A stretch of 42,169 nucleotides of DNA, from NCBI GenBank assembly GCA_903847195.1, contig CAINCZ010000185.1, positions 1-42,169 of the forward strand, given 5' to 3'. Source of the stretch: an uncultured Acidobacteriota bacterium (GTDB lineage: Bacteria > Acidobacteriota > Terriglobia > Terriglobales > CAINCZ01). How positions within the stretch are numbered: the stretch's first letter is position 1; each line of letters begins with the position of its first letter. Positions 786-42,169 of this stretch are shown in pieces. The position numbers were made by a program, and so were the translations under genes. The notes below the pieces were generated by a model, which saw nothing but the letters and a program-made list of their open reading frames with translations, did not search any database and had not been told where the DNA came from.

Positions 786-1066
786 TCGGCCCCCTGCCGC
801 CCGGGAGGCGGCGCTGGAGCGATATTGCTGTGCTGCGGGCCGGTTTGCAAGAGAAATCCGCCGGTTGCCGGGGGGCGCTCCCCGTTGGGATTAAGACAAT
901 ACAATGAGAGGCTTCCGGACGCCTTCACTTTTCGGCAGGTGCTCGGGAATGAGATAATCGGCGAAGAGCTTCACCCTGCGTTTTTTTCCCGTTTCTTTGG
1001 CATTACGGCGCCGACGCGCCGACGGCACTCTGGCAGCAACGCGCTTGGGATGTGGGAGGTCAAGGC

Positions 1067-2548
1067 ATGGCTGATCAACCTGGTTTTGGACGCAAGCTGG
1101 TCCAGACCATCGGTGCGGTGCGCACCGGAATCATTATTCTCATCATCACCGGCATCGTATCGGCCGCCGGTACCGTCATATTGCAGCGTCCCCTGACCGA
1201 CCCTGAGGAAATGCAGCGCGCTTATGCTCCGGGCACACTGCGCGTGCTCGACGCCATCGGCATGACCGACGTTTACCACGCCTGGTGGTATGCCGCGCTG
1301 CTGGCGCTGTTGGCGATCAGCATCCTCTTTGCCTCGATCGAGCGCTGGCCGAACGTGTGGAAGTACTATTCGCGTCCCTACCGGCGCACCGAGCCTCCGT
1401 TCCGTGCGACGCTGCCGCAGCAGGTTTCGTTTCCGATCAGCGATCCAGCGCGGGCGCTGGAGGCAGCTGACCGTGCGATGCGCAAACACGGGCTGAAGCC
1501 CGACCGCATCATCGAGCACGACGAAGTTTCGCTGTTTGCCGAAAAGAGCCGCTACGCGGTGATGGCGGTTTATGTCGTCCACTTCAGCCTGCTGCTGATT
1601 ATGCTGGGCGGCATCGTGGATTCGATTGTCGGCTACAAGGGCTACCTGCAACTGGTTCCGGGGCAGCCCGCCGTGAAGCAGATTCAGCTGCGCGACAACA
1701 GCATGCATCGGCTCCCCTTTGAGCTGCGCTGCGACGACGCCGGACAGGAGAACTACACCGGGCAGTTTGCCATGATGCCCAAGCGCTGGTGGTCGAAGCT
1801 GGTGGTGCTGCAGGACGGCCGCGAGGTGGAGCGCAAGGAGATCGCGGTCAACGAGCCGCTGGTGCGCGACGGCATCCGCTTCTACCAGTCAGGCTACGGC
1901 CAGAGCGCGTTCCTGAGGCAGGCGCGGGTGGCCGTGGTGAATGAAGCGCAGATGACCAATCCGGTGACCTTCAAGCTCTCAGCGACCGACAGCGGCGTAC
2001 TGCCCGATGGGCGGCCGGTGCGCCTGCTGCGCTTTCTGCCGGACATGTACCAGATGGACGGCGGCGTCTATCAGCGTTCGCGTGATCTGAATGCGGCGGC
2101 CATGGAACTGGAGATCGGCAGCGGCGCGCAGGCGCAGCGGGCGTGGATGTTCCGCACGGATCAGGCCGGCATGGAAGAGGTGGCGCTGGTGGGACCGTTC
2201 GACTCCAAGGGCGACCTGTTGAAGGGCCTGCCCCGGCTGGTGGCGCGCGCCGAGATGCTGCCATTCACCGGGCTGCAGGTTTCCTACGAGCCCGGACAGT
2301 GGGCGGTATGGGCCGGTTGTCTGCTGATGGCGGTTGGCCTCGTACTGGCGTTCTGGGTTCTGCACCAGCGCTACTGGGTGATGCCGCTCACCAACGCGGA
2401 CGGCAAGCTCGTGCTCTGGTTGGGCGGGGCGTGCAACAAGAACCGTGAAGCATTCGTGGCGCGCTTTACCGAAGTGGCCGCCGCGGTGGAAAAAGAACTG
2501 GCAGCTGAACCGGCGCGGGCGGTACCCACCGCGGGCAGCGCTCAATAG
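1067..2548 (+). CDS. resB: Cytochrome c biogenesis protein ResB (Ccs1)
   Basis: ResB works with CcsA in System II cytochrome c maturation, presenting haem for covalent attachment to CXXCH apocytochromes outside the membrane. The 493-residue protein has the family layout: two N-terminal membrane segments (about 17-39 and 70-92), a third near 165-190 containing a conserved membrane histidine (VVHFSLL), a large periplasmic domain, and a last membrane segment near 415-440 (GQWAVWAGCLLMAVG). The ATG at 1067 is preferred over the in-frame GTG at 1052 because GGGAGGT (1054-1060) is correctly spaced before 1067. A GATAAT box at 953-958 could be its -10, but the -35 is poor. ccsA follows after 17 nt with its own GGAGG, so the two are co-transcribed. 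Substrates in this window include the cytochrome c at 10263. Confidence 0.93.
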   Translation: MADQPGFGRKLVQTIGAVRTGIIILIITGIVSAAGTVILQRPLTDPEEMQRAYAPGTLRVLDAIGMTDVYHAWWYAALLALLAISILFASIERWPNVWKYYSRPYRRTEPPFRATLPQQVSFPISDPARALEAADRAMRKHGLKPDRIIEHDEVSLFAEKSRYAVMAVYVVHFSLLLIMLGGIVDSIVGYKGYLQLVPGQPAVKQIQLRDNSMHRLPFELRCDDAGQENYTGQFAMMPKRWWSKLVVLQDGREVERKEIAVNEPLVRDGIRFYQSGYGQSAFLRQARVAVVNEAQMTNPVTFKLSATDSGVLPDGRPVRLLRFLPDMYQMDGGVYQRSRDLNAAAMELEIGSGAQAQRAWMFRTDQAGMEEVALVGPFDSKGDLLKGLPRLVARAEMLPFTGLQVSYEPGQWAVWAGCLLMAVGLVLAFWVLHQRYWVMPLTNADGKLVLWLGGACNKNREAFVARFTEVAAAVEKELAAEPARAVPTAGSAQ

Positions 2549-2565
2549 TCTGGTCGGAGGTTTCG

Positions 2566-3984
2566 ATGGCAACGCGCGCAACCGGAGTGAAGGTCGACGA
2601 CAAGATGCAGGCTAGGACGGGCACCGGCTTTCTGCTCGTTGTCGCCCTGGCGACCGTCTTCGCACTGTTCATGGGCTTTCTGAACGTGGTGAAGTCCGGC
2701 AACCTGCTGAGTGAGAGCAACGGACTGTATGGAGCGCTGGTGTTTTACGCCGCCGCCTCGGCGCTCTACATCGGCTTCGGCGTCATCGGCAACGACCGCC
2801 TGGTGAAGTACGGAACGTGGGCCACGGTGCTGGGCTGGGTATGCAATTCGCTGGCGGCCGGGCACCGCTGGTATGTAGCGGGGCATCCGCCGTTTGCCAG
2901 CATTTACGAGATGCTGCTCAGCTTTGTCTGGACGGTAGCGGTGCTGACGCTGGTCGCCGAGCGGCGCTACGGGGTGAAGCTGATCGGCAGCATTACCATG
3001 CCGCTGGCCGTGGTCAGCGTTATCGTCATGCAGTTGCTGCCCTCCGACGTGCATCCGCTGGTGCCGGCGCTGCAGTCCACCTGGCTGCACGTGCACGTGA
3101 CGCTGGCCATGCTGGCCTACGCCGCCTGCGCGCTGAGCTTCGCGATGGCGATGATGTACCTGATCCAGGACAGCATGAAGACCGAGACCTTTCTGGCGGC
3201 CACCAGCGCCTTCAGTGCGCTGATCTACGCCGCCATCCTCGGCGCGCGCTTTGCCGCATGGGGCGGCCTGAGCGTCACCGCCTACGACCTGGTGCGTAAG
3301 GAGGAGATACTGCTGCAGAAGGGCGTGCGCCTGTTCGTCGTGATCCCCGACCTCGGCTGGCTTTTTGTGCTGACGCTGCTGGTCGCGCTGGCTCCGCTGG
3401 CGATTTATATGGCGGGGCGTTTCCGCGGTGAGCAGGGGGTGCCTCTTGGCGCCAATCGCGCAGTATTTCTTTCCGTGCTGTTGCAGGTGGTGTCGCTTGG
3501 CGTTTTCGCGGTGCGCTGCCGGAACCAGGCCTACGGCTCGCCGGATGCCGAGGGACTTTTCTCCACCAGCCTCGCCGCCAGCCCTTTCCTGCTGGCCGGG
3601 CTGATCGGCAGCATCTTCGCCACACTGCTCTACCTGATGCTGTACTGGCGGCGTGAAGAGTTGCAGCGCCTGCTACCCAGCGCCGACGCGCTGGACCGCG
3701 TCACCTACAACACCATCCGCGTGGCCTTCCCGCTGCTGACGCTGATGATCGCCGTCGGAGCCTACTGGGCCAACCGCACCTGGGGCTCGTACTGGAGCTG
3801 GGACCCGAAGGAGACGTGGGCGGCCATCACGTGGCTGGTCTATGCCGGATACCTGCACATGCGAATCACCCGAGGCTGGAAGGGGCGGCGGGCCGCCTTA
3901 TTCGCCATCCTCGGTTTCGCCGTGGTGATGTTCACGTTCTTCGGCGTGACGTACCTGCTGCCGGGTCTGCACGCCTACGCATGA
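2566..3984 (+). CDS. ccsA: Cytochrome c biogenesis protein CcsA (ResC)
   Basis: CcsA is the haem-handling partner of ResB in System II cytochrome c biogenesis. The 472-residue protein is a polytopic membrane protein with the tryptophan-rich haem-binding motif near its C-terminus ([18 protein letters not shown]), followed by conserved histidine-bearing helices (YAGYLHMRI). A further conserved region, [14 protein letters not shown], lies mid-protein. The N-terminus has about 20 extra hydrophilic residues before the first helix. A GGAGG site sits ahead of the ATG. The stop codon overlaps the start of dtd (ATGA), which indicates translational coupling in a resB-ccsA-dtd operon. Family assignment is firm; the order of helices in the middle is less certain. 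Confidence 0.94.
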
Positions 3985-18936: not shown

Positions 18937-20334
18937 TTAACTATTTTCAAAGCCAGCCAATAGCCTTTCGTAGTCGGCAGCGGTGTCGACATCGCCCGGC
19001 GCATCGCAGTCGAGCGGAACCGCCTCGCGATCCGTCAGGTGGCGACGCAGCACCTCGCGTCCGCCTTCGTCGCCGGTTACGCCGAGCAACTCGGGAAACA
19101 GAGATCGGGCAAACAGTACCGGATGCCCGGGAGTGCCGCGGAACACCGGTTGTACGGCAGGCGCCCGGCGCGCGCGAAAGGCATGGACCACGGCGTCGAT
19201 AATCGCCGGCGTGATCGTCGGCTGGTCGCCCAGCAGGAACAACACCGCATCCGTGTCAGCCGAAAGCGCCGCAACGGCCGCCCGGATGGAAGCGCTTTGA
19301 CCCGTGGCGTAGTCGGGGTTGAGCACCATGCGCAGACGGTCATGGGCGGGCACGAGGGCCTGTAGCTCGTCCGCCTGATGCCCAACCACTGCGAGAACCT
19401 CGTCTGCGACGGAGGCCAGCGCGGCGTCCACGACGTGCTGCAGCAAAGGCTTGCCGCCGAGCGCGAGCCCGAGTTTCAGGCGGCCCATGCGCCTGCCGAG
19501 TCCTGCGGCCAGCACGACCGCAGTTACGCGGGCGCCGCCGTCCTGCGCCACCACCACCTCGCGCACCGGCGACGCTTGCCGCACCGCGCCGATCACCACT
19601 CGCCCGACACCACGAGCAACCAAAGCTCGGGCAACTTCGCGTCCGCCGGCGAGTTCTGCTTCCCCGTCCGCCTGATTGAGCAGCGGGATGAACCGCGCAG
19701 CGGGTGGCGCTGTCCGGCGGCCGCCTTCGGCGTGCGCCAGAACGGCAGCCACAATCTCGGCGGATACAGTTTCTCCCAGCCTGGCCCCCGCCAGGCTGGC
19801 CACGATCTCCGGACGGTGTACGCGCTCATTGGTTAACGGCGCGCCCAGGATGCTCAGTCCGACTACCGGAATCACCAGCGTGGTTTCGGCCGGTATCACC
19901 GGCTCGTGGGCTGCCGGAGCCTTGAAGGGACGGCTCTTGGAGCCATCGGCTTCGACCAGCATCGTGGGGTGCCCTAGTCCTCGCTGCAATTGAACAACCC
20001 ACTCGGGCGGAATCCCCGCCAATCTTCCATCGGCGGTGTGCCCGCGCGCTACGGTGATGAAGCGAGCGGTAGCGAATGCGCGCTCCGCAGCCAACAGCAG
20101 ACGGTCGAGCGTGGGTTCAAGAACAACCGAGGAGCACTCGTCGGGCTGCGGCGGCAGAATGTGGGTGGTGGTCGCGCCGATCGCGCGGCACTCCGTGGCG
20201 GCGATCTCCGCGCCGAGGCGGAACAGGGTGCTGGTCTTGCCGCCGCCGCCCACCAGGGCGACGATCTCACCGGGTCTGATCTCGAAAGCCTCGGTGAGCG
20301 TGAGCCCGGTGCCGGAAATGTATTGGGTCTTCAT
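18937..20334 (-). CDS. YqeC-MocA fusion (Se-Mo hydroxylase accessory protein plus MoCo cytidylyltransferase)
   Basis: A 465-residue two-domain protein. Residues 1 to about 262 match YqeC, a putative selenium-dependent hydroxylase accessory protein with a P-loop-like GGGGKTS (29-35), an ATTTHI motif and a LVEADGSK motif. Residues about 267-465 are a MobA/MocA-type nucleotidyltransferase: VVLAAGLGRRMGRLKL, GGKPLLQHVV, FLLGDQPTITPAI and GTPGHPVLF. MocA attaches CMP to molybdopterin to give the dinucleotide cofactor used by xanthine-dehydrogenase-type enzymes. In E. coli the related yqeC and mocA are separate genes beside xdhD and yqeB. Here one polypeptide should serve the large subunit encoded just upstream. 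No frameshift marks the junction, so the fusion looks genuine. Confidence 0.9.
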   Translation of the reverse strand: MKTQYISGTGLTLTEAFEIRPGEIVALVGGGGKTSTLFRLGAEIAATECRAIGATTTHILPPQPDECSSVVLEPTLDRLLLAAERAFATARFITVARGHTADGRLAGIPPEWVVQLQRGLGHPTMLVEADGSKSRPFKAPAAHEPVIPAETTLVIPVVGLSILGAPLTNERVHRPEIVASLAGARLGETVSAEIVAAVLAHAEGGRRTAPPAARFIPLLNQADGEAELAGGREVARALVARGVGRVVIGAVRQASPVREVVVAQDGGARVTAVVLAAGLGRRMGRLKLGLALGGKPLLQHVVDAALASVADEVLAVVGHQADELQALVPAHDRLRMVLNPDYATGQSASIRAAVAALSADTDAVLFLLGDQPTITPAIIDAVVHAFRARRAPAVQPVFRGTPGHPVLFARSLFPELLGVTGDEGGREVLRRHLTDREAVPLDCDAPGDVDTAADYERLLAGFENS

Positions 20335-20456: not shown

Positions 20457-22823
20457 CTAATCTTCTCCTTGAGCGCGCGCTGCCGATGACGCTGCCTCTT
20501 TCCGGCTCTGCTGGATGACCCTCCACACACGCTCTGCCGTCAGCGGGAGCTGATGCACGCGGACGCCAATGGCGTCGGCCACGGCGTTGGCAACGGCCGC
20601 CGCCGTCGGCACCGTGCAAGGCTCGCCGATGCCCTTGGCGCCGAAGGGTCCGCCCGGGTAAGGATCTTCGATGATGATGTTTTCGATCTCCGGGGTATCC
20701 ATGGCGGTCGGCAGCAGATAAGTTGCAAGGGAAGGATTACACACCCTGCCATCTTCGATGACGATCTCTTCCGTGATCGCGTAGCCGAGGCCCATGCTCA
20801 CGCCGCCATGCACCTGGCTGTCGACGAGCGAGGGATTGATGGAGCGGCCGACGTCCTGCGCGTTGACGATACGCTTGACCTCGACGTTGCCGGTAACCGT
20901 GTCCACCTCGACTTCCGCGATCTGCGTGCCGAAGGCATAGACGGGGAAAGGATTCCCCAGCCCGGTCTGCTGGTCCACGACCGGCCGCTCAATACACCAC
21001 CATCCTTTGCCGAGCAGGCGGCGCCCGCAGCGGAAGCAATAGAGCAGGACCTCGTGGGCTCCGGTGATGCGCCCGCTGCGCTGGTGCCGGAATTCGCCGT
21101 CGATCAGCGCGACTTCTTCCGGGGGAACTTCCATCAGGTCGGCGGCCATCTCCCGCATCGTCTGCCGCGCTTCGGCGGCAGCAGGCACGATGGCGTTGCC
21201 AGCGACCAGGGTGCCGCGCGAGGCCACGGTGAGCAGGCTGTCAGGATCGGCGACCGAATCGTTGCGGGGCGCAATCATCACGTACTGCAGGTCAATGCCG
21301 AGTGCTTCGGCGGCGATCTGTGCATGGGAGGTGCGCGCGCCCTGACCCAGTTCGACAATCCCGGTGCGCACGATGATCGTGCCGTGCGCGTTGACCTCCA
21401 TGGTGCAGTTGGAGTACTCCGGCCAACCGCCGGTGGCGAGCGGGAACCAGTAGGAGGCGATGCCGATGCCGCGGCGGAAGCGGCCTGCCGAGCGAGCAGA
21501 TGAGGCTGGGTGAACCCGCTGCCAGCCAACGCGCTCTGCTGCCTTGACCATGCTTTCTTTCAGCCCCACGCTGTTTTCCAGCAGCTGGCCGGTGACGGTG
21601 CGAGCGCCGACCTCCAAGCCGTTTAGCAGACGAATCTCGAGCGGGTCCATGCCCAGGGCCTTCGCGAGCTCATCCATCTGCGCCTCATGCGCGAAGGCGA
21701 CCTGGGGAATGCCGAAGCCGCGCATGGCTCCGCTGACTGGCAGGTTGGTGTACACGTTGTAGGCGTCAACGCGCGCATGGGGAATCTGGTAAGGGCCGCT
21801 AGCGTGGAATCCGACCTTGTCCGTCAATCCGCCTGCCGGAGGCATGGCGTGACCAACGGAGGCGTAGGCCCCCTTGTTGAGGTACACGCGCACTTCGATC
21901 GCCTGCAATCGGCCGTCGCTTGTGGCGCCGCTCTTATATTCGATCAGCGCCGGGTGGCGCTTGGTGGAGAAGTTGATGGATTCCTCGCGGTCGATCACCA
22001 GCTTGACCGGACGCCGTGCAGCCCAGGCGAGCAGGGCAGCGCGCACGCCGCACTCGTTGCCGAGTTCCCCTTTGCCGCCGAAGCCGCCGCCGGTATTGGG
22101 GATGATGACGCGAACTTTCTCCGGCGGTATCGACAGCATGGCGGCGGTGAAGTTGCGAATCAGCAACGAATACTGTCCGCAGGTCCAGATGGTCAAGCCG
22201 CCATCGGGAGTGTAGTCGGCGATAGCGCCCTCAATCTCAAGATAGGCGTGTTCGACCAGAGGTGTCTGATAGGTGCGCTCAATGATCACGTCGCAGGCGG
22301 CGAAGCCGTCTTCCACCGAGCCCTTGCGCAGCTTGAAGTGGCGCAGCACGTTGTTCAGTACGTTGTCGTGCACGGTGGGGGCCGCGGGCAGCATGCCCTG
22401 CTTGGCGTCGAAGACCGGAGGCAGTTCGTCGTAACGGACGTCGATCAACTCCAGCGCGCGAGTGGCGATATCCAGAGTCTCGGCCGCAACCAATGCAACT
22501 ACATCGCCGAGGAAACGCACCTTGTCGTAGCTGATAATCGGCTGGGCGCTGTGGCCGAAGTTCTTGTTGCCGGGAATGTCGGCGGCTGTTACCACGGCCA
22601 CCACGCCGGGCAGGGCCTTGGCGCGCGAGGCTTCGATACCGACCAGACGGGCGTGAGGGAAGCGGCTGCGCAGCGCCCGTCCATAGAGCATGTTGGGCAG
22701 CTGCAGGTCGCCGCAGTATACGGGTTCGCCCCGGACTTTCTCCCGTCCGTCGGCGCGAACCACGGACTCTCCTACTCCGCCCTGGGTCTTAATCAGCTTG
22801 TCTAGCTCGGTCGCAGCAGCCAT
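20457..22823 (-). CDS. Xanthine dehydrogenase family, molybdopterin-binding large subunit
   Basis: Large catalytic subunit of a molybdenum hydroxylase (788 residues), which hydroxylates a carbon next to nitrogen or an aldehyde using water. The N-terminal a/b hammerhead domain (about 15-125) begins GESVVRADGREKVRGEPVY. The Mo domains show NTGGGFGGKGELGNECG, the GAMRGFGIPQ loop, the VELGQGARTSHAQIAAEALG segment and, near the C-terminus, PFGAKGIGEP, whose glutamate (near 737) is the catalytic base. A local CFRC...WWC stretch lies near 640. GAGGAAG precedes the ATG. YqeB and YqeC downstream suggest a selenium-dependent enzyme. No 2Fe-2S or FAD subunit lies next to it. Substrate (purine, nicotinate or other N-heterocycle) is unknown. 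Confidence 0.92.
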   Translation of the reverse strand: MAAATELDKLIKTQGGVGESVVRADGREKVRGEPVYCGDLQLPNMLYGRALRSRFPHARLVGIEASRAKALPGVVAVVTAADIPGNKNFGHSAQPIISYDKVRFLGDVVALVAAETLDIATRALELIDVRYDELPPVFDAKQGMLPAAPTVHDNVLNNVLRHFKLRKGSVEDGFAACDVIIERTYQTPLVEHAYLEIEGAIADYTPDGGLTIWTCGQYSLLIRNFTAAMLSIPPEKVRVIIPNTGGGFGGKGELGNECGVRAALLAWAARRPVKLVIDREESINFSTKRHPALIEYKSGATSDGRLQAIEVRVYLNKGAYASVGHAMPPAGGLTDKVGFHASGPYQIPHARVDAYNVYTNLPVSGAMRGFGIPQVAFAHEAQMDELAKALGMDPLEIRLLNGLEVGARTVTGQLLENSVGLKESMVKAAERVGWQRVHPASSARSAGRFRRGIGIASYWFPLATGGWPEYSNCTMEVNAHGTIIVRTGIVELGQGARTSHAQIAAEALGIDLQYVMIAPRNDSVADPDSLLTVASRGTLVAGNAIVPAAAEARQTMREMAADLMEVPPEEVALIDGEFRHQRSGRITGAHEVLLYCFRCGRRLLGKGWWCIERPVVDQQTGLGNPFPVYAFGTQIAEVEVDTVTGNVEVKRIVNAQDVGRSINPSLVDSQVHGGVSMGLGYAITEEIVIEDGRVCNPSLATYLLPTAMDTPEIENIIIEDPYPGGPFGAKGIGEPCTVPTAAAVANAVADAIGVRVHQLPLTAERVWRVIQQSRKEAASSAARAQGED

Positions 22824-30810: not shown

Positions 30811-31062
30811 ATGTGTCTGGCTGTTCCCGGCGAAGTGCTCGAAATTGTCGAGCAGGATGACCGGCGCGAGGGACGGGTGCGATTCGGCGGCGTTGTGAAG
30901 CGCGTGCGGCTGGACTTCGTTCCCGAAGCGCGGCCCGGCGACTACGTCATCGTCCACGCCGGATTCGCCATCAGCCGAATGGACGCCGAGGAGGCACAGC
31001 GAACCCTGGACCTGTTCGCTGAGTTGGTAGCCGCTAGCGTAGACCTGACGGAGCAGTCCTGA
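30811..31062 (+). CDS. hypC: Hydrogenase maturation chaperone HypC
   Basis: HypC (83 residues) binds HypD while the Fe(CN)2CO group is assembled and carries it to the hydrogenase large subunit. It starts with the essential MCLAVPGEV motif (Cys2) and keeps GGVVKRVRLDFVP and GDYVIVHAGFAISRMD. GCAGG precedes the ATG. It opens the hypCDEABF operon. A TATTAT at 30768-30773 may be the operon -10, but I see no matching -35. Confidence 0.96.
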   Translation: MCLAVPGEVLEIVEQDDRREGRVRFGGVVKRVRLDFVPEARPGDYVIVHAGFAISRMDAEEAQRTLDLFAELVAASVDLTEQS

Positions 31063-31109
31063 GCCGTGGGTGGCTGGGGATTGTCCGGTTCTGGTTCGAG
31101 GAAGACAGC

Positions 31110-32219
31110 GTGAAATTCGTTGACGAGTTTCGCAGCCGGCAACTTGCCCAGGCCCTGACGCGCGAAATCGTCAACACCGTCACCCGCCGCTGGGTGCTGA
31201 TGGAAATCTGCGGTGGCCAGACCCACACCATCCTCCGTTACGGACTCGATGAACTGATCGGCGGCGCCGTGGAACTGGTTCACGGCCCGGGCTGCCCGGT
31301 CTGCGTCACCCCGGCCCAGGCGATCGACCGCGCGGTAGAGTTGGCGTTTGGCTGCGGCGTGATCCTGGCCTCTTACGGCGACATGCTGCGGGTTCCCGGT
31401 TCGCGCTCGAATCTATTTCAGTCGCGTGCGCAGGGCGCCGACGTGCGCGTTATCTATAGTCCGCTGGAGGCGGTGAAGCTTAGCCGCGACAACCCCGGCC
31501 GCCACGTGGTGCTGTTCGCCATTGGATTTGAGACGACTGCCCCAGCGAACGCCCTCGCCGTCAGTGAGGCACGCCGCCACGGGCTGACGAATTTCTCGCT
31601 GCTGGTCTCGCAGGTATTGGTGCCGCCCGCCATCCGCGCGCTGATGCGATCGCCGGGAAACCTGGTGCAGGGACTGATTGCCCCCGGCCACGTATGCACC
31701 ATTATGGGGTGCGAGGAATACTCAGAACTGGCCGCCGAGTGCCGGGTCCCGGTGGTCGTGGCGGGATTTGAACCCGTGGATCTGCTGCAAGCCGTGCTCA
31801 TGCTGGTCCGCCAACTGGAAGCCGGCACCGCCGTGTGCGAAAACCAGTATGCCCGCGCGGTGCGGGCTGAGGGCAATCCTGCCGCGCGGCGGCTCATGGG
31901 CGAGGTCTTCGAGTGTTGCGACCAGCATTGGCGCGGCTTTGGCATGATTCCCGCAAGCGGGCTGCGCCTGCGCACTGAATATGCCAACTGGGATGCCACC
32001 CGGCGCTTCCCGCTGCCGGAGCGCGCGGCGGAAGAGCCGGCCGATTGCCTGAGCGCACAGATCCTGCAGGGACGCAGCCGACCGCCCGACTGCCCGAGGT
32101 TTGCCGAGCGTTGCACGCCGGAAAGTCCGCTGGGTGCGCCCATGGTCTCCAGCGAAGGAGCCTGCGCTGCCTACTATCGCTACCGTGGACACGCCGCGAA
32201 AGCCGAGGCGACCTCATGA
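31110..32219 (+). CDS. hypD: Hydrogenase maturation protein HypD
   Basis: HypD is the 4Fe-4S scaffold on which the iron receives its CN and CO ligands. The 369-residue protein has the key motifs MEICGGQTHTILRYGLDELI (C34), GPGCPVCVTP (C62, C65) and APGHVCTIMG, with cluster cysteines in the C-terminal quarter (from DCPRFAERCTPESPLGAPMVSSEGAC onward, split over about 340-365). GTG start with GAGGAA upstream. Its stop overlaps the hypE start as ATGA. Confidence 0.96.
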   Translation: MKFVDEFRSRQLAQALTREIVNTVTRRWVLMEICGGQTHTILRYGLDELIGGAVELVHGPGCPVCVTPAQAIDRAVELAFGCGVILASYGDMLRVPGSRSNLFQSRAQGADVRVIYSPLEAVKLSRDNPGRHVVLFAIGFETTAPANALAVSEARRHGLTNFSLLVSQVLVPPAIRALMRSPGNLVQGLIAPGHVCTIMGCEEYSELAAECRVPVVVAGFEPVDLLQAVLMLVRQLEAGTAVCENQYARAVRAEGNPAARRLMGEVFECCDQHWRGFGMIPASGLRLRTEYANWDATRRFPLPERAAEEPADCLSAQILQGRSRPPDCPRFAERCTPESPLGAPMVSSEGACAAYYRYRGHAAKAEATS

Positions 32220-33304
32220 GCGACGTGAAAGACGATCCGCGCTTTCTCTGCCCGGCTCCGTTGCCGGTGAAGGACCGCGTCGTGCTGGGACATGGCAGCG
32301 GCGGCAAGCTCAGCGCCGAGCTCATGGCCTCGGTGTTCCTGCCAGCGTTGCGCAACCCGGAGCTGGCGAAGCTCAACGATCAGGCGGTGATCCGTGTCGG
32401 CGGCGCGCGCCTTGCCTTCACTACGGATACGTTCGTTGTGAAGCCGCTCGTCTTTCCGGGTGGCGACATCGGCTCGCTCGCCGTACATGGCACGATCAAC
32501 GACCTTGCCGTGGGTGGTGCGCGTCCGCTTGCTCTGAGCGCGGCGTTTGTGATCGAAGAGGGAGTCCCGCTCGACCAACTGCAACAGCTTGTCGCCTCGC
32601 TCGCGCGGGCGGCTGCGGCGGCCGCAACGCCGGTGGTGACGGGCGATACCAAGGTGGTGGAGCGCGGCGGATGCGATGGGCTCTTCATCAACACCAGCGG
32701 CATCGGTGTCATCGAAAGCGGAGTTGATCTCTCCGGCGAGTATGCGCGCGCCGGCGACCGCATCCTGCTCAGCGGGTTCATCGGCGACCATGGCATCGCC
32801 GTACTGGGCGAACGCGAAGGGCTCGAGTTTGAATCGCCGGTCACCTCCGACAGCGCCGCGCTGCACCAGCTCGTCGCCGCGATGCTGGAGGCAAGTGCGC
32901 GTTACCGGCAGCAGGGAGTGGCGCCCGGGCCGATTCGCTGCATGCGGGATCCGACACGCGGCGGGCTCGCCAGTGCGTTGAATGAAATTGCGGGCAAGGC
33001 CGCGGTCGGGATCCAGTTGGAAGAGCGTTGCATTCCGGTACGCGAGGCGGTGCGTGGAGCCTGTGAACTGCTGGGATTCGATCCGCTCTACGTGGCGAAC
33101 GAGGGCAAACTGGTCGCCTTCGTGGCGCCCGAAGCCGCCGACGCGGTGCTCGAGGCCATGCAAGCGCATCCGCTTGGCCGCGAGGCAAGAGACATTGGAT
33201 GCGTATCCGCCGAGCACCCGGCGGTCGTGACCCTGCGTACCACACTCGGCACGCGGCGCATGGTCGATATGCTGAGCGGCGATCAGTTGCCGCGTATCTG
33301 CTGA
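32216..33304 (+). CDS. hypE: Hydrogenase maturation protein HypE
   Basis: HypE receives a carbamoyl group from HypF on its C-terminal cysteine and dehydrates it to a thiocyanate, the source of the CN ligands. The 362-residue protein has LGHGSGGKLSAELM at the N-terminus, DPTRGGLASALNEIA in the ATP-binding PurM-like core, and the expected terminal PRIC (C362). The ATG at 32216 overlaps the hypD stop. Confidence 0.97.
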   Translation: MSDVKDDPRFLCPAPLPVKDRVVLGHGSGGKLSAELMASVFLPALRNPELAKLNDQAVIRVGGARLAFTTDTFVVKPLVFPGGDIGSLAVHGTINDLAVGGARPLALSAAFVIEEGVPLDQLQQLVASLARAAAAAATPVVTGDTKVVERGGCDGLFINTSGIGVIESGVDLSGEYARAGDRILLSGFIGDHGIAVLGEREGLEFESPVTSDSAALHQLVAAMLEASARYRQQGVAPGPIRCMRDPTRGGLASALNEIAGKAAVGIQLEERCIPVREAVRGACELLGFDPLYVANEGKLVAFVAPEAADAVLEAMQAHPLGREARDIGCVSAEHPAVVTLRTTLGTRRMVDMLSGDQLPRIC

Positions 33305-33325
33305 GCGATTGCCGAGGGCCTGATT

Positions 33326-33706
33326 GTGCACGAGCTGGGCATCGCCGAATCGATTCTCGCGGCCGTTTCGAATGAGGCCGCCAGCCGCCCGGGCAGCCGT
33401 CCGCTGCGCGTGGGCGTGCGGGTGGGAGAGTTGGCCGCCATCGATCCCGAGTCGCTGCGCTTCTGTTTTGAAGTGCTGGTGAAGGGGACCGAAAACGAAA
33501 GCCTGCAGATGGAGATCGAGACGGTGCCGCGCCGCCATTTCTGCGGTGTCTGCAAGGAAGACTTCGCGGTGCGCGACTATGACTTTCATTGTCCCGGCTG
33601 CCATGCCTGGTGTCCGACGTTTGCCGGCGGCGATGACCTGACCCTGACGTTTCTGGAGCTGGAAGAAGATGGAGACCATACCGCTGCAGCGGAAAGTGCT
33701 CAGTGA
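33326..33706 (+). CDS. hypA: Hydrogenase maturation nickel metallochaperone HypA
   Basis: HypA delivers nickel with HypB. The 126-residue protein has the N-terminal nickel ligand His2 (MHELGIAES) and a zinc site with two pairs of cysteines, C73/C76 and C89/C92. GTG start at 33326 in a GAGGGCC context. Its last 38 nt overlap the beginning of hypB. Confidence 0.96.
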   Translation: MHELGIAESILAAVSNEAASRPGSRPLRVGVRVGELAAIDPESLRFCFEVLVKGTENESLQMEIETVPRRHFCGVCKEDFAVRDYDFHCPGCHAWCPTFAGGDDLTLTFLELEEDGDHTAAAESAQ

Positions 33707-34361
33707 AAACGACCGGCTGGCCACCGACCTGCGAGAACGCTTTGCGGCGCACGGCATCCTCTGCCTGAACCTCATCAGCTCGCCCGGGTCCGGCAAGACG
33801 AGCCTGCTGGAGCGCACGCTCGCCCAGTGGCCCGCCGAGGTTCGTCCCGCCGTGCTGACCGGCGACATCCAGACGGAAAACGACGCCAATCGCCTGCGCC
33901 GCTTCTGCGGCCGGGTGAAGCAGATCACCACCGGCGGGGCGTGCCACCTGGATGCGCGCATGGTCGAGGCGGCGCTCACCGACTGGCGGTTGGACGAGAT
34001 CGATCTGCTGCTGGTGGAAAACGTCGGCAATCTGGTTTGCCCGGCCAGCTACGATCTGGGTGAAGCGGCCAAACTGGTGCTGCTGAGCGTGACCGAGGGT
34101 GAAGACAAGCCGCTCAAGTATCCTTCGATCTTCTTCAAGTCCGAGCTGGTCGTCGTGAACAAGATCGACCTGCTGCCCTATGTGCCCTTCGACCTTGCCA
34201 AGGCGGAAGACAACGCGCGCAAGGTGCATCCGGGCGTCGAGATCATTCGTACCTCATGCACCACGCAGCAGGGAATAGGCGAATGGCTGGGCTGGCTGCA
34301 ACGGCGATTGCGCTCGATCCGAACGCGGGTGGATGCAACACCGGCCGGAATCAGCGGCTGA
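33669..34361 (+). CDS. hypB: Hydrogenase maturation GTPase HypB
   Basis: HypB is the GTPase that drives nickel insertion. The 230-residue protein has a P-loop SSPGSGKTS (K43), the GDIQTENDANR switch, metal-site residues C92-H93 (GGACHLD) and C124 (GNLVCPA), and the guanine-specificity motif NKIDLL. It lacks the poly-His nickel store and N-terminal CxxCGC site found in some homologues. The ATG at 33669 (GGAAGAAG upstream) keeps the conserved start METIPLQRKVLSEND, so the hypA overlap is real. Confidence 0.96.
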   Translation: METIPLQRKVLSENDRLATDLRERFAAHGILCLNLISSPGSGKTSLLERTLAQWPAEVRPAVLTGDIQTENDANRLRRFCGRVKQITTGGACHLDARMVEAALTDWRLDEIDLLLVENVGNLVCPASYDLGEAAKLVLLSVTEGEDKPLKYPSIFFKSELVVVNKIDLLPYVPFDLAKAEDNARKVHPGVEIIRTSCTTQQGIGEWLGWLQRRLRSIRTRVDATPAGISG

Positions 34362-34379
34362 CACGGACGGCGGCAGATC

Positions 34380-36659
34380 ATGATCACGCGCAAGCGAATC
34401 GAGCTCCAGGGCATTGTGCAGGGCGTGGGGTTCCGTCCCTATGTTTTTCGCCTGGCCACCGAACTGAGCGTTGCCGGATTCATTTCCAACTCTTCGGCCG
34501 GGGTGACGATTGAGGTCGAGGGAGAACCCGCAGCTGTCGAGCTATTCCTGCGCCGCCTGCCGTCCGAGTTGCCGCCGCTGGCGCGCATCACACGCAGTGA
34601 GGTGGTGGCGGTGGCTCCTTTGGGTGAAAGCTCCTTTCATATTCTTCCCAGCGACAGGGGCGCACGCGCGACCGCCATGATCGCCGCCGATGTGGCCACC
34701 TGTGCCGACTGCCTGCGCGAGTTGTTCGACCCTGCCGACCGGCGCTTCGGTTATCCATTCCTCAATTGCACCAACTGCGGCCCGCGTTTCACCATCGTGC
34801 GCGGCATCCCCTACGACCGGCCCTCAACCTCGATGGCGGCCTTTCCGATGTGCGAGGCCTGCCGCCAGGAATACGACGACCCTCGCGACCGCCGCTTTCA
34901 CGCCCAGCCCAACGCCTGCTGGCAGTGCGGTCCGCAGGTGGAACTCTGGAATGCCAAAGGAGAACGGCGGCCCGTGGCCGACCCCGTAGCCTCGGCAGCC
35001 GAGGCTATCGCTGCCGGACAGATCATGGCGGTGAAGGGGCTGGGCGGCTTTCATCTGGCCGTTGACGCCACTAATGAGGAGGCGGTTGCGCGGCTGCGCG
35101 AGCGCAAGGGCCGGGCGGAGAAGCCGTTCGCGGTCATGGTTCCCAGCATGGAGCGTGCCGAAGAGATTTGTGAGCTGGATGAGGTCGCGCGGCAGGCGCT
35201 GGTCTCGGTGCAGCGGCCCATCGTGTTGTTGGTGCGCCGCAACGCCGGGCTGGTTGTTGAGCAGGTGGCGCCGGGCAACCGCTATCTGGGAGTCTTCCTG
35301 CCCTATACGCCGCTGCATCACCTGCTCTGTGCCCGGAGCGGCCTGCGGGCGATGGTGATGACCAGCGCCAACCTGAGCGAGGAGCCGATTGCTATTGATA
35401 ACCGCGAGGCGGTCGAGCGGCTCGGCGGCATCGCCGATGGATTTCTCGTGCACAATCGCGACATCCTGCGGCGTTGCGACGACTCGGTGGTGACGGTGTC
35501 ACCCTGCGGCGTGCGCCACCTGCGGCGCTCGCGCGGATTTGTGCCCGTGCCGGTAACGTTGCGCGTACCGCTGCCCGCGGTGCTGGCGGTGGGTGGCGAG
35601 TTGAAGAACACGATCTGCATGATTCGCGGCGAGCACGCCTTTCTGAGCCAGCACATCGGCGACCTCGAGAACTTCGAGGCCTGCCGCTTTTTTGAAGAGG
35701 CCGTCGGGCACTTGCAGAAGGTGCTCGAGTTTTCTCCGGCGACCATCGCGCACGATCTGCACCCTGACTATTACTCCACCCAGTGGGCGCTGCGGCAGGC
35801 GGGAGTGCGGCAGGTGGCGGTGCAGCATCATCATGCGCACATTGCCAGCTGCATGGCCGAGCATCGCCTGGAAGGGCCAGTGATCGGCTTCGCCATGGAC
35901 GGCACCGGCTACGGCTCCGACGGGCACATCTGGGGAGGCGAGGTTCTGGTCTGCGACTACGCAGGTTTTGAACGGGCGGCACACTTCGCCTACGTGCCCA
36001 TGCCGGGCGGAGCGGCGGCGATTCGAGAGCCGTGGCGGATGGCCGCGGGCTATCTCGTGCATCACTTCGGCCCGGAGGGACTAAAGCAGGACTTGCCCTT
36101 CCTGCGCGAGATTGAACGGAGCAGGCTGCAGACGGTGCTGCCGATGATCGAGCGCCGCGTGAATTCACCGCTCACCTCCAGTTGCGGACGGCTGTTTGAC
36201 GCGGTAGCGGCCCTGGCCGGAATTCGCAACACGGTCACCTACGAGGCGCAGGCGGCGATTGAGTTGGAGATGGCGATTGGGCAATCAGGAGATGAAGAGC
36301 CATACGGCTTCGACCTGCAAGTCTGCGAAGGTGCTTCGTGGATCATCGATACGCGGCCGATCTTTGGGCAGTTGCTCGCGGACGTGCGGCGCGGCACATC
36401 CACCGCACGGATCAGCACGAGCTTTCACCTTGGTTTGATTGAGGTGTTCGTGCAAGTGGCCCAGGCCCTTCGCGAGCGCACACGGCTGAATCGCGTGTGC
36501 CTGAGCGGCGGGACTTTCCAGAACCGTTTTCTGCTGGAACTACTTCAAGCGCGATTGTTTGAGGCTGGCTTCGACGTATACTCCAATGCGCAGGTTCCCT
36601 CAGGCGATGGCGGGCTGAGCCTGGGGCAGGCGGTGGTGGCGGGGTGCCGTTGCCGCTGA
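34380..36659 (+). CDS. hypF: Carbamoyltransferase HypF
   Basis: HypF converts carbamoyl phosphate and ATP to a carbamoyl adenylate and passes the carbamoyl group to HypE. The 759-residue protein has all domains in order: acylphosphatase (1-90, GIVQGVGFRPYVFRLA), two zinc fingers (C108/C111/C130/C133 and C158/C161/C180/C183), YrdC-like (about 200-375, VKGLGGFHLAVDA) and Kae1-like (about 395-755, VQHHHAHIASCMAEH, GFAMDGTGYGSDG, LSGGTFQN). Full length and intact. It ends the hyp operon, followed by a small membrane-protein gene. Confidence 0.97.
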   Translation: MITRKRIELQGIVQGVGFRPYVFRLATELSVAGFISNSSAGVTIEVEGEPAAVELFLRRLPSELPPLARITRSEVVAVAPLGESSFHILPSDRGARATAMIAADVATCADCLRELFDPADRRFGYPFLNCTNCGPRFTIVRGIPYDRPSTSMAAFPMCEACRQEYDDPRDRRFHAQPNACWQCGPQVELWNAKGERRPVADPVASAAEAIAAGQIMAVKGLGGFHLAVDATNEEAVARLRERKGRAEKPFAVMVPSMERAEEICELDEVARQALVSVQRPIVLLVRRNAGLVVEQVAPGNRYLGVFLPYTPLHHLLCARSGLRAMVMTSANLSEEPIAIDNREAVERLGGIADGFLVHNRDILRRCDDSVVTVSPCGVRHLRRSRGFVPVPVTLRVPLPAVLAVGGELKNTICMIRGEHAFLSQHIGDLENFEACRFFEEAVGHLQKVLEFSPATIAHDLHPDYYSTQWALRQAGVRQVAVQHHHAHIASCMAEHRLEGPVIGFAMDGTGYGSDGHIWGGEVLVCDYAGFERAAHFAYVPMPGGAAAIREPWRMAAGYLVHHFGPEGLKQDLPFLREIERSRLQTVLPMIERRVNSPLTSSCGRLFDAVAALAGIRNTVTYEAQAAIELEMAIGQSGDEEPYGFDLQVCEGASWIIDTRPIFGQLLADVRRGTSTARISTSFHLGLIEVFVQVAQALRERTRLNRVCLSGGTFQNRFLLELLQARLFEAGFDVYSNAQVPSGDGGLSLGQAVVAGCRCR

Positions 36660-36955: not shown

Positions 36956-37459
36956 TTAATCGTCCGGCGTCTTTGGCGCCGCGGTGAGGCAAATCGAGCG
37001 ACCTAAATTCTCAACTGTGAGCTGATCGGTCTTGAACAGATTGGTCATGGCCTCTGCGACTCTTGCCGCGGCTTCGCATACCGCGAGGCTCATCTCCGCG
37101 CCGTGTTCCAGCGTTACGGCTGTTGCCGTTACGAGCGCAGCCGGAGGCGCATGGCCGAATACGCTCTGCGCGAGCGCAAGCAGCGTTCCCGGTTCGAAGT
37201 GGTGGGAGCTGCTGGAGGAGCCGCAGGGTTCGACAGGCATAGCGCAGAGCGCTCCCGGTTGGTCGCCCACGGCGGCGTCGAGGAAGATCGCATAGTCCGT
37301 CTGGCTCAGCGGGATGGCCATCTCGGGCGTGAGCTGGCGGTTGACGATTACCTCAACGGAATCGAGGCGGCGATCCTCGATCTGCCGGGCGGTGAGCGGG
37401 CCGAAGCCGTCGTCACCGCGGTACGGATTGCCGTAGCCGATCACCAGTACGCGCTGCAC
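36956..37459 (-). CDS. hoxW: Hydrogenase large-subunit maturation protease, HoxW-type
   Basis: Nickel-dependent endopeptidase that removes the C-terminal tail of the large subunit after metal insertion. The 167-residue protein starts at GTG 37459 (AAGGGG upstream). It has VIGYGNPYRGDDGFGP with D16/D17, then D61 (IFLDAAVGD) and H86/H87 (SSHHFEP) as metal ligands. The NRQLTPE motif is typical of proteases for NAD-linked (group 3d) hydrogenases. The longer open frame upstream overlaps the large subunit and is not family-like. Its partner gene ends 25 bp upstream. Confidence 0.93.
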   Translation of the reverse strand: MQRVLVIGYGNPYRGDDGFGPLTARQIEDRRLDSVEVIVNRQLTPEMAIPLSQTDYAIFLDAAVGDQPGALCAMPVEPCGSSSSSHHFEPGTLLALAQSVFGHAPPAALVTATAVTLEHGAEMSLAVCEAAARVAEAMTNLFKTDQLTVENLGRSICLTAAPKTPDD

Positions 37460-37484
37460 AGGCGGCCCCTTGGTTTGATTCCAC

Positions 37485-38906
<1,422 letters not shown>

Positions 38907-38916
38907 ACTCGACTCC

Positions 38917-39447
38917 CTATCCGAACTTCACCTTCGCATTGGTCGCGGGCTTGCGGCCCTCCAGCAGGTCGGTCAACAGTCCAAGGATGGCCTTGGCCGG
39001 CGGAGGACAGCCGGGCACATGGATATCCACCTCGACGAACTCATGCAGCGGCCGCGCGTGTTTCATCAGCGAAGGAACGCCGTCGCTGGGTATCTGCTTG
39101 TTTTCATCCGCGCCCTCGACGTAGATGCGCTGCAGCAGCTGCGTTACCGGGATGGAGTTCCGCATGGCCGGCACGTTGCTGGTTACCGCGCAGTCGCCCA
39201 GGGCGATCAGGATGTGCGTGCGGTGGCGGATGGTCTCAATGCGATGCGCGTCTTCCAGCGAGCTGACGGCGCCTTCCACCAGCGTGACGTCCACCGCTTC
39301 GGGGAACTCCTGCGCATCCACCAGCGGACCGTAGACGAGGTCGATCTTGCCGGCCAGGGCGATGACGGCGGCATCCGTGTCGAGCAGCGACATGTGGCAC
39401 CCGGAGCAGCCATCCAGCCAGACCGTGGCTACCTTGACCTTTTTCAT
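38917..39447 (-). CDS. hoxY: [NiFe]-hydrogenase small subunit (HoxY-type)
   Basis: Electron-transfer subunit carrying the single proximal 4Fe-4S cluster next to the NiFe site. The 176-residue protein keeps four ligands: C14 and C17 (LDGCSGCHMSLLD), C86 (ALGDCAV) and C147 (VPGCPPP). No Tat signal and no C-terminal cluster domain, as expected for soluble HoxY. AAGGAG precedes the ATG at 39447, which overlaps the hoxU stop (ATGA). Confidence 0.95.
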   Translation of the reverse strand: MKKVKVATVWLDGCSGCHMSLLDTDAAVIALAGKIDLVYGPLVDAQEFPEAVDVTLVEGAVSSLEDAHRIETIRHRTHILIALGDCAVTSNVPAMRNSIPVTQLLQRIYVEGADENKQIPSDGVPSLMKHARPLHEFVEVDIHVPGCPPPAKAILGLLTDLLEGRKPATNAKVKFG

Positions 39448-40157
39448 CCGCGCACTCCTTTCCGCAGCGCCAGGCCGGTCAAATTCTCGTTGCGCTTCAC
39501 CATCTCTTCGACGGCATAGCCCTTTTCGGACAGAGCGCCGGTCGGGCATGCCTGAACGCACTTGCCGCAACTGGTGCACTCGGGGGCCTCGCCCCAGGGC
39601 TGGTTGAGGCCGCTGTTCACGCGGGCGTGGATGCCGCGCGAGGTGATGTCCCAGACGTTGGCCCCTTCCAGCTCGCTGCATACCCGCACACACCGCGTGC
39701 AGAGAATGCAGCGGTTGTGGTCGAGCACGTAGCGCTTGTGCGTCATGTCGACCGGCAACTTCGGATAGTTGTACCAATAGCGGGTGCTGGTGATGCCGAG
39801 CGCCGTGGCCATCGACTGCAATTCGCAGTGGCCGTTGGAAACGCAGACGGAGCAGACGTGGTTGCGCTCGATCAGCAGCAACTCGACGGCGATGCGTCGG
39901 TACTGCGTCAGCCGCGGCGAGGTGGTCGTGACCGACATGCCGTCCTGCGCCGGGGTGGTGCAGGCGGGCAGCAGGCGGTCGGTACCCGACACCTCGACGA
40001 TGCAGAGCCGGCAGGCGCCGATGGCGGAGAGACCCTCGAGATAGCACAGCGTCGGGATCTGCTTACCGGCGGAGCGGGCCGCCTGCAGGATCGTCTCTCC
40101 CTCCAGTGCGTTGACCAGTTCGCCGTCAATACGGATGGAAAGTTTTTTTTGCGCCAA
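39444..40157 (-). CDS. hoxU: Diaphorase iron-sulfur subunit (HoxU-type)
   Basis: NuoG-like electron relay between the flavoprotein and HoxY. The 237-residue protein has four cluster sites: 2Fe-2S (C38, C49, C52, C66), a His-ligated 4Fe-4S (H100, C102, C105, C111 in NHVCSVCVSNGHC), and two ferredoxin-type 4Fe-4S (C150/C153/C156/C160 and C194/C197/C200/C204). The start is TTG at 40157 with GGAGG seven bases upstream, 11 nt after the preceding stop. Eight consecutive A's lie in codons 3-5. Compared with NuoG/HydA it lacks any molybdopterin or H-cluster domain. Confidence 0.94.
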   Translation of the reverse strand: MAQKKLSIRIDGELVNALEGETILQAARSAGKQIPTLCYLEGLSAIGACRLCIVEVSGTDRLLPACTTPAQDGMSVTTTSPRLTQYRRIAVELLLIERNHVCSVCVSNGHCELQSMATALGITSTRYWYNYPKLPVDMTHKRYVLDHNRCILCTRCVRVCSELEGANVWDITSRGIHARVNSGLNQPWGEAPECTSCGKCVQACPTGALSEKGYAVEEMVKRNENLTGLALRKGVRG

Positions 40158-40168
40158 GTCTCGCCTCC

Positions 40169-42169
40169 TTAGCCAACGCTCACGTGCGTGCGGATGTCGC
40201 AGCGCAGGCACCGGCAGGATTCTTCCCAGGCTTCTTCGGCAACTAGGCCCGTCACCACTTCATCGTTGGACTTGATCCGCTTCTTGGCGTTGAGGGCCCG
40301 GGCAGCGTGGCGGCGGCTCTGGCCCGGTTCCTCCGGCGCCTTCTGCTCGTACACAAAATCGGGGAACAGGCGGAGCCAGCGGGACTCGCCCATCAGCCGC
40401 TCGTCGATGTTGCGAGCGGCCTGCTTGCCGTAGTCCATGGCATTGGAGACGTTGGAGGCCCCGGTGATCACATCGCCGCCGGCGTAGAAATTGGTGCGGC
40501 TGGTCTCGAGCGAGAAGCGGTCCACGACGATCGTGCCCTCTTCCTTGAGCCCCAGACCCGAGGCACGGCAGAAGTCGAGGTCGAAGGTCTCGCCGACGCC
40601 GAGCACCACCGAGTCGCACTCAAAGCGCTGAATCTCGTCGGTGGACACCGGACGGCGGCGGCCCGAGCGGTCGTACTCACCCAAGCGGGTGCGCACCACC
40701 TCGATCGCCTTCACGTTGCCTTCGGCGTCGCCAATGATGCGATGCGGCGCCGACAGGAAGACAAAGCGAACGCCCTCTTCCTCGGCGGCCACGGTCTCTT
40801 CCTCGATGGCGGGCATATCCTTGCGCTCGCGGCGATAGAGGACGGTAGCTTCGGCGCCCATGCGGACGGCGGTGCGCGCCGAGTCGATGGCGGCGTTGCC
40901 GCCGCCGATGATGGCGACCCGGCGTCCCATGCGCATCTTCTCTTCCTTTGAAACCGCCTCGAGGAAGATCAGCGCCGGATAGACGCCCCTCAACTCCGTG
41001 CCCGGCAGATAGAGCCACGACTCCTTCCACGTGCCGATGGAGATAAAGACAGCATCGAAGCGGTCAGCCAGATCGTTCAACGGCAGGTCGAAACCGACGC
41101 GCGTGTTGAAGACGAACTTGACCCCCAGCCGCTCGATCAACTCGACCTCGCGGCGGATCACTTCCTTCGGCAAGCGGTACTCGGGGATGGCGAAGCGCAG
41201 CATGCCGCCCGCCTCGGCCTTTTCGTCGAAGACCGTTACGTCGTGGCCGAGCAGAGCCAGGTAAAACGCGGCGGTCAGGCCGGTGGGTCCGGCCCCGGCC
41301 ACGGCTACCTTGCGCCCGGTAGCGCCCAGCTTGCGCGCTACGATGCGTGCCGCCATGGCGTCGAACTGATCGGAGAACAGGATGGTATCGGCGATCCGCC
41401 GATGCACCTCGCGCATGTTGACCGCTTCGTCGAGCGTGCTGCGGCGGCAACGGTTCTCGCACGGATGCTGGCAGACGCGTCCCGTGGATGCGGGCAGGGG
41501 ATTATCGAGGATCACCGACTCGAATGCCTCTTCGATGCGGCGTTCCTGGTAGAGCTGCAGGAAGCGCGGGATGTTCATGCGCAGCGGGCAGCTGTTTTCG
41601 CAGGGCGAAAGCGCGAGGTCCTGGCAGACTCCCGCGCGGCAGCGATGCGCCCGCAGGTGGTCTTCAAATTCCTCGCGGAAGTGGCGCATGGTGGTGAGCA
41701 CGGGGTTCGGGGCCGTCTGGCCCAGCCCGCACAGCGAACAGTCGCGGATCATGCGGCCCAGCTCTTCGAGCGCCTCCAGTCGGTTCCGCATGCCGGGGAT
41801 GCCGTGCGTGATGCCATTCAGGATGCGCAGCAGCTTGTTGAGCCCGACGCGGCAGGGGATGCACTTGCCGCATGATTCCGAATGCGTGAACTCGACGAAG
41901 AAGCGGGCCACATCGACCATGCAGTTGTCTTCGTCCATCACCACCATGCCGCCCGAGCCCATGATGGAGCCCAACTGCTGCAGGCTCTCGTAATCGACCG
42001 GCGTGTCGAACATCTCTTGCGGAATGCAGCCGCCCGAGGGGCCGCCGGTCTGCACGGCCTTGATGGCGCGGCCCGGAGTGCAGCCGCCTTCGCCAATGTC
42101 GTAAATAAAGGTCTTGAGGGGACTGCCAAGCGGCATCTCGACCAGTCCGGTGCTATGCACCTTGCCGAC
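40169..42169 (-). CDS. HydB/NuoF-type diaphorase fused to a GltD/NfnB-type flavoprotein (5' part outside window)
   Basis: The frame is open to the right window edge, so the N-terminus is missing; 666 residues are visible. Residues 1 to about 170 are the C-terminal half of NuoF/Hyd[44 protein letters not shown], and the 4Fe-4S site C100/C103/C106 plus C147 ([12 protein letters not shown]). A HydB-like RCRAGVCQ follows, where HydB carries a ferredoxin domain; instead, a GltD-type 4Fe-4S domain begins ([15 protein letters not shown], then [10 protein letters not shown]), then FAD (GAGPTG near 292) and NAD(P)H ([13 protein letters not shown] near 422, with YRRERKDMP) motifs and a closing [20 protein letters not shown]. 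It should link H2 to NAD(H) and possibly NADP(H). Upstream subunits (NuoE/HoxE type) may lie beyond the edge. Confidence 0.9.

Follow-up and report, generated by a model that had tools for sequence, protein, structure and literature searches.

Enzymes of the Bfu family are defined by a conserved BfuBC core that includes the clusters B3 and B4 (Schut 2022, PMC9304861; here and below, statements on published work refer to the parts of each source available to us). In the models of HydABC and of the Stn transhydrogenases, the low-potential electron passes through HydC and cluster B2 and then through B3/B4 to ferredoxin, and the published HydABC/Bfu bifurcation schemes end their low-potential branch there. 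In sub-type I BfuB, described with [FeFe] group A3 hydrogenases in Hydrogenedentota, B3/B4 is replaced by DPD_II, which holds two [4Fe-4S] clusters, and an FAD/NAD(P) domain (FAD, flavin adenine dinucleotide; Zheng and Huang 2024, PMC11406978). Here we analyse a stretch of 42,169 nucleotides (hereafter the window) from an uncultured Acidobacteriota bacterium (contig CAINCZ010000185.1), in which a HydB subunit fused to a GltD-type flavoprotein module is encoded beside a [NiFe] hydrogenase pair. As the best overall explanation, we propose a relative of the bifurcating [NiFe] enzyme HydABCSL in which an NAD half is probably combined with an NADP(H) port that replaces the ferredoxin port.

Sub-type I BfuB is the precedent for the fused subunit: the exchange of B3/B4 for DPD_II plus an FAD/NAD(P) domain is also found in the window, a likeness drawn from the published description. 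The catalytic subunit differs, being of [FeFe] group A3 there, whereas the window has a HoxU-like HydA and [NiFe] HydSL. The initial annotation of the window, made from its letters alone, named no exact precedent; this does not hold, since [FeFe]-hydrogenases with a HydB-GltD fusion were described in 2024 (PMC11406978), and the Stn transhydrogenases combine these modules in a different order (PMC10482914). No report of a HydB-GltD fusion beside a [NiFe] pair was found in the open-licence PubMed Central (PMC) literature. The available parts of Kremp 2020 (PMC7483475), Losey 2020 (PMC7311640) and Poudel 2018 (PMC6085437) do not show the fusion, and those of Schut 2022 (PMC9304861) do not use the term GltD. 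Peat Acidobacteria have [NiFe] hydrogenases of several groups, including 3b and 3d, in a report whose available part does not mention the fused subunit (PMC9599518). Beyond this precedent, the window and its relatives add a [NiFe] version, a cluster of the His type and a side branch that shows no hydrogenase genes nearby.

The NiFe-HydABCSL enzyme of Acetomicrobium mobile (NiFe-Bfu, a Type 3 Bfu; 7t2r, PMC8880783) has the HydB half with its B1 and B2 sites, the HydS and the HydL that are also present here, and the HydB half of one relative of the window (L003) is 60% identical to 7t2r HydB over 423 aligned residues. In contrast to the fused subunit, 7t2r HydB has 597 amino acids (aa) and ends in the B3/B4 ferredoxin domain, not in GltD, and the large BfuA with A1-A5 (HydA, 692 aa) is absent from the window, where HydA has 237 aa. 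StnABC/Nfn-Bfu (8oh5, 9n5u, 9bov; PMC10482914, PMC7483475) is built from the same modules, namely HydC, HydB, a NuoG N-terminus and GltD, and its GltD likewise has a CxxC at the C-terminal side. In Stn, however, GltD resides in the NuoG-like subunit and feeds B1, HydB keeps B3/B4, and the cluster ligand is Lys; in the window GltD is on HydB behind B2, on the ferredoxin side of flavin mononucleotide (FMN), and the ligand is His. By analogy, Stn and the window enzyme would be the same parts in opposite wiring. With the NfnB/GltD/DPD family the window module shares the fold, the FAD and NADP motifs and five cluster Cys; it differs in being fused to HydB, in having His or Lys for Glu, and in carrying the CxxC motif at the C-terminal instead of the N-terminal side.

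Results

Fused subunit and junction

The fused subunit is read as a 666-aa frame on the minus strand (42169-40172, stop at 40169) without an internal stop, its 5' end open at the window edge. Pfam places the NuoF-type cluster domain NADH_4Fe-4S at residues 86-171, the two-cluster domain Fer4_20 at 171-263 and the FAD/NAD(P) fold Pyr_redox_2 at 287-580. The HydB portion inside the window is the cluster part, and the FMN/NADH residues lie beyond the window end. All of the following features are on the minus strand.

41624..42169, HydB/BfuB (NuoF-like) half, C-terminal part only, 5' end off the window (Pfam and ligand alignment)
41921-41935, HydB half: B2 ligand, C of DEDNC
41852-41878, HydB half: B1 [4Fe-4S] ligands, ESCGKCIPC
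41720-41740, HydB half: B1 ligand, second C of CSLCG
41624-41665, HydB half: B2 ligands, H and two C of a 14-residue motif
40169..41623, GltD/StnC-like module in the same frame as the HydB half, stop at 40169 (Pfam and motif alignment)
41585-41608, GltD module: cluster Cys in SPCENSCP
41447-41482, GltD module: cluster Cys in a 12-residue motif
41396-41413, GltD module: His in the Lys/Glu ligand position, REVHRR
41267-41308, GltD module: FAD Rossmann motif
41165-41185, GltD module: Arg of PEYRLPK
40889-40915, GltD module: NADP Rossmann motif
40808-40837, GltD module: 10-residue motif
40199-40222, GltD module: C-terminal CLRC

Our scan of GTDB genome contigs gave at least 589 confirmed relatives, of which 80 were kept and the frame was read at 30. 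Both halves lie in one frame at 24 of these 30 loci (L001-L024), from 24 different genomes; two of the fusions (L017 and L021) are cut at the 3' end by the contig, and the other 22 measure 1049-1276 aa from the first start codon. At the remaining six loci HydB adjoins a separate GltD-type gene, as in Stn. Upstream of the fusion, hydC is present in all 24 relatives. The initial annotation's description of one uninterrupted frame, joining a NuoF-like part to a complete GltD module, is borne out by the lack of an internal stop, by the Pfam domains and by these 24 like relatives, and a stop or assembly error at the junction, which it had named as a refutation, is ruled out by the single frame at 24 loci in other genomes.

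The junction lies directly after H-x5-CRAGVC (residues 169-182 of the window frame), part of the B2 site, which consists of H-x5-C-x4-C and one upstream Cys and is kept in 54/54 fusion proteins. The annotation had placed it behind RCRAGVCQ, the usual start of the ferredoxin domain of HydB, and this boundary is right: in 55 of the 65 HydB rows that carry no fusion, the B2 motif is followed by a tail of 60-76 aa that contains 8-9 Cys. Five other rows (L082, L083, L085-L087), which we take as non-bifurcating Hox-type by our own assignment, end 10-16 aa behind the motif with 0-1 Cys and no GltD, and another five are without H-x5-C-x4-C. In the fusion, the C-terminal B3/B4 ferredoxin domain (IPR017896) is absent and the GltD module is in its place, with a tail of about 480 aa that holds two [4Fe-4S] sites and FAD and NADPH motifs. 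This tail comparison rules out that the subunit is a simple HoxF.

Cofactor ligands

We aligned the ligands of 54 rows, namely the window and 53 relatives from several phyla (L093 was removed as a copy of L003). The four B1 Cys and the three Cys and the His of B2 are invariant in 54/54 rows, as are, in the GltD module, the five cluster Cys, the Arg beside FAD and both Arg of the YRR motif (NADP). The B2 ligands of 7t2r_B are Cys438, Cys/Thr476, His525, Cys531 and Cys536 (PMC8880783); our rows have at position 476 Thr (34, including the window), Cys (12), Ser (4), Lys (3) or Ala (1). The first Gly of the FMN loop and the D and E of CNADE, which the window does not reach, are present in 53/53 relatives. 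The C-terminal CxxC of the GltD module is found in 52/52 rows with letters there. For the B5 Cys of the N-terminal thioredoxin-like domain, in a region likewise beyond the window, the counts among the relatives are 33, 51 and 51 of 51 rows.

NfnB uses Glu, and StnC uses Lys, as a ligand of the cluster beside FAD (PMC10482914). The fusion proteins divide evenly at this position: the window together with L001-L023 and L094-L096 has His (27 rows), the remaining 27 rows have Lys, and none has Glu. We found no report of His as the Lys/Glu-type cluster ligand beside FAD in the open-licence PMC literature. The best match of L003 among solved GltD modules is the fold of StnC 100-565.

Partner genes and phylogeny

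On the minus strand of the window, the fusion is followed by hydA (hoxU), hydS, hydL and a maturation protease.

39444..40157, minus strand: hydA (HoxU-like), 237 aa, TTG start after GGAGG, NF005745 (HoxU) above cut-off
38917..39447, minus strand: hydS, small [NiFe] hydrogenase subunit with Cys 14, 17, 86 and 147, ATGA overlap with hydA
37485..38906, minus strand: hydL, large [NiFe] subunit with RICGIC and DPCFSC and a C-terminal extension behind CSTH (family search, motifs)
36956..37654, minus strand: hydrogenase maturation protease, TIGR00072 above cut-off, start probably inside the listed open reading frame (ORF)
30811..36659, plus strand, opposite to the hydrogenase operon: maturation genes, which we take to be hypC-D-E-A-B-F

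HydA scores 345.2 bits against NF005745 (cut-off 333) and has one [2Fe-2S] domain, the NADH-G 4Fe-4S region and a two-cluster ferredoxin-type domain (Pfam); a domain search found no H-cluster domain in its 237 aa, which end behind the ferredoxin-type clusters. Both NiFe-binding Cys pairs are present in HydL. The annotation had named HoxU, HoxY and HoxH as partners; the first fits, HydA being HoxU-like as in Hox (group 3d), but in the comparison with the PDB the large subunit scores higher against HydABCSL HydL (515.8 bits) than against HoxH (405.8 bits). The Hox gene order is E-F-U-Y-H, and that of the window is similar. Group 3d HoxF is not known to have a further C-terminal module, whereas the subunit in the window has GltD.

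Two gene groups stand elsewhere in the window: a xanthine-dehydrogenase-type molybdenum subunit beside a fusion protein of YqeC and a MobA-like nucleoside triphosphate transferase (20460-22823 and 18940-20334, minus strand), and a ResB and cytochrome c assembly protein pair (1052-3981, plus strand).

The 26 close relatives of the His type (L001-L023, L094-L096) differ in their partner genes. Sixteen have hydSL beside the fusion (L003, L008, L010-L016, L018-L021, L094-L096), two have an [FeFe] HydA (L022, L023), two are cut by a contig end (L009, L017), and six (L001, L002, L004-L007) show no hydrogenase gene on the fetched stretch, with no HydS, HydL or [FeFe] HydA within stretches reaching 1.9-8.2 kb upstream of hydC. 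All six of these genomes have large-subunit homologues (50-56% identity): in G001, G002, G004, G006 and G007 the large subunit belongs to other clusters, which include a non-fused HydB and a HydA of their own, and in G005 only a contig-end piece of HydL is seen. The six may therefore share hydrogenase subunits from elsewhere, or the contig may be absent from an incomplete bin. Conserved neighbours were checked as a hidden partner, and no redox partner was recognised among them: an ORF of about 1270 aa upstream of the fusion set in L002, L004, L005 and L006 (cut short in L002 and L005) and accA downstream in L002, L005 and L006. L024 is an intermediate layout, in which the fusion stands with hydSL and a long HydA carrying a molybdopterin-oxidoreductase domain.

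In our tree of 33 fusion proteins, L022 and L024 are long, and the program warned of long branches from the outgroup to the rest. The loci that lack hydSL nearby form one branch (100/99), which has the window as its sister (100/97) and is nested among [NiFe]-linked rows. The simplest reading would therefore be that hydSL was lost in this Acidobacteria branch. Purifying selection on the set is shown by the ratio of nonsynonymous to synonymous distances (dN/dS), which in five pairs of the branch lies at 0.055-0.100 (fusion) and 0.068-0.107 (hydA); the synonymous distances (dS) of these pairs, 0.78-1.9, are partly saturated. The fused state needs six changes (two forced) on the HydB-half tree, from which the window fragment was left out as too short, and two (one forced) on the GltD-half tree.

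Occurrence in other genomes

A protein search gave at least 8000 matches at E <= 1e-100, in which plain HydB and NuoF can be included; among the 120 matches listed, the length is 957-1053 aa and 91-100% of the fusion is covered. Of 396 genomes sampled from the phylum of G003 (the genome of a relative), 271 show a match at 1e-100, and plain HydB or NuoF accounts for many of these. Counted by hand among the matches listed, at least 67 matches in at least 60 of the 396 genomes span the junction, a lower bound since at most two candidates were scored per genome; two of the 67 have one stop inside the aligned stretch. Many Acidobacteria genomes carry the fusion, and record titles point to bogs and soils as the source of some of them. 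Family search found [FeFe] catalytic domains in 6 of the 24 genomes. Chance fusion of neighbours is ruled out by the ligand conservation over 54 rows and by the low dN/dS.

Several other arrangements were seen. L135 (434-7362) has the fusion, then hydC, a 540-aa HydB without GltD and an [FeFe] HydA in one gene run. The cluster at L130 (5280-13986) combines the fusion with a separate 128-aa piece like the HydB N-terminus, a 583-aa HydA and distant hydS/hydL (25% and 38% identity). At L126 (9801-13541, minus strand) the fusion and hydC have no hydA adjoining on the same strand. A second [NiFe] cluster in G007 (L087, 5914-11085, minus strand) has a HydB with the B2 motif that ends 12 aa later.

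Discussion

Based on our findings, we propose a mechanism for the fused hydrogenase. The enzyme would be a soluble complex of five subunits, HydC, the HydB-GltD fusion, HydA, HydS and HydL, most of whose genes are in the window. H2 would be split at the [NiFe] site of HydL, and along the electron route that we infer, electrons would pass via HydS and HydA to cluster B1 and FMN, where the HydB half would handle NAD(H). Directly behind B2, the GltD module with its two [4Fe-4S] clusters, FAD and NADP(H) site would replace the B3/B4 domain. Since the module stands at the exact B3/B4 point, NADP(H) is most likely where the former ferredoxin branch now ends, and from the sequence we consider it quite likely that an NADP(H) port has replaced the ferredoxin port. 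The two nucleotide sites that the initial annotation suggested for one subunit beside a [NiFe] hydrogenase find good support: the relatives keep the FMN/NADH half, which in the window's own operon lies outside, and the tested cluster, FAD and NADP positions of the GltD module are invariant except for the His/Lys ligand. If the two reactions were coupled, the net reaction would be 2 H2 + NAD+ + NADP+ <-> NADH + NADPH + 2 H+, and at low H2 the NAD half would help the less favourable NADP half, or the reverse.

That the two nucleotide reactions are coupled by bifurcation is plausible, though somewhat less likely than not. The annotation had suggested that the subunit could bifurcate electrons; B1, B2 and HydC features are kept, as this would require, but the B3/B4 ferredoxin domain, thought necessary, is gone. 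Because of this loss, a plain two-nucleotide hydrogenase fits the same anatomy, and we hold it to be quite possible: it would have the same NADP(H) port, and one cluster chain would serve NAD+ at FMN and NADP+ at FAD independently, so that the enzyme would also act as a simple NADPH:NAD+ transhydrogenase. In HydB homologues the absence of B3/B4 goes with loss of bifurcation (PMC11406978), and StnC, the best fold match to the GltD module, carries a non-bifurcating FAD (PMC10482914). The B2 ligands and HydC, which are part of the gated branch in bifurcating enzymes, are conserved, which argues against independent outlets; this argument is weak, since the five short-tailed HydB rows keep the B2 motif too, and B2 alone is therefore no proof of bifurcation. 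Several further points weigh against a bifurcating enzyme with an NADP(H) port. A complete B1-B5 set appears necessary for bifurcation (PMC11406978), and the first B5 Cys is replaced in 18/51 rows. The FMN half and the hydC of the window's operon lie beyond the window and are deduced from its relatives, and it is motif homology that suggests NADP, not NAD, for the second site. The predicted model has a predicted template modelling score (pTM) of 0.58 and a weak hinge at 570-578, so that it does not fix the distance from B2 to the GltD clusters, and it is weak also at 233-235, 316-318, 630-633 and 1042-1052, near the FMN/NAD and cluster sites.

Zheng and Huang proposed for sub-type I BfuB, with the same domain layout, two bifurcation centres (PMC11406978), which here would be the FMN-FeS core and, within the GltD module, a bifurcating FAD of the Nfn kind. 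All 54 rows do keep the Arg with which NfnB protects FAD N5, but StnC keeps it too without bifurcating at FAD (PMC10482914), and the Glu ligand of NfnB is His (27) or Lys (27) and never Glu; we consider this scheme improbable. That the GltD module has no redox function and persists as a remnant or a structural arm is most improbable. StnC does keep its clusters C1/C2 off the electron path, where they seem to serve stability or assembly (PMC10482914), but in the fusions the tested cluster, FAD and NADP positions do not vary among 54 proteins from several phyla, and the dN/dS of the fusion is 0.055-0.100 in seven pairs.

For the loci without hydSL, it is possible that hydC-fusion-hydA (L001, L002, L004-L007) works as a stand-alone transhydrogenase; the open-licence PMC literature yielded no report of Acidobacteria keeping this set under strong selection without a hydrogenase gene nearby. 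Taken together, the following history is tentative and on the whole rather unlikely: a ferredoxin-independent bifurcating [NiFe] hydrogenase, reducing NAD+ and NADP+ by way of a His-cluster GltD, later lost hydSL in one Acidobacteria branch, leaving a HydC/HydB-GltD/HydA transhydrogenase that would be an independent rewiring of the Stn idea.

If the proposed NADP(H) port is real, the exchange of the port for NADPH would test whether the core bifurcates or merely conducts. The potentials concerned are -280 mV for NAD and -370 mV for NADP (PMC10482914) and -414 mV for H2 (PMC9304861), and by our own arithmetic NADPH formation, which otherwise needs an H2 pressure of about 3 kPa, would with 1:1 coupling need about 0.1 kPa. 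Hydrogenase surveys that class by the catalytic subunit alone would miss the fusion, through which H2 would gain a direct route to biosynthetic NADPH.
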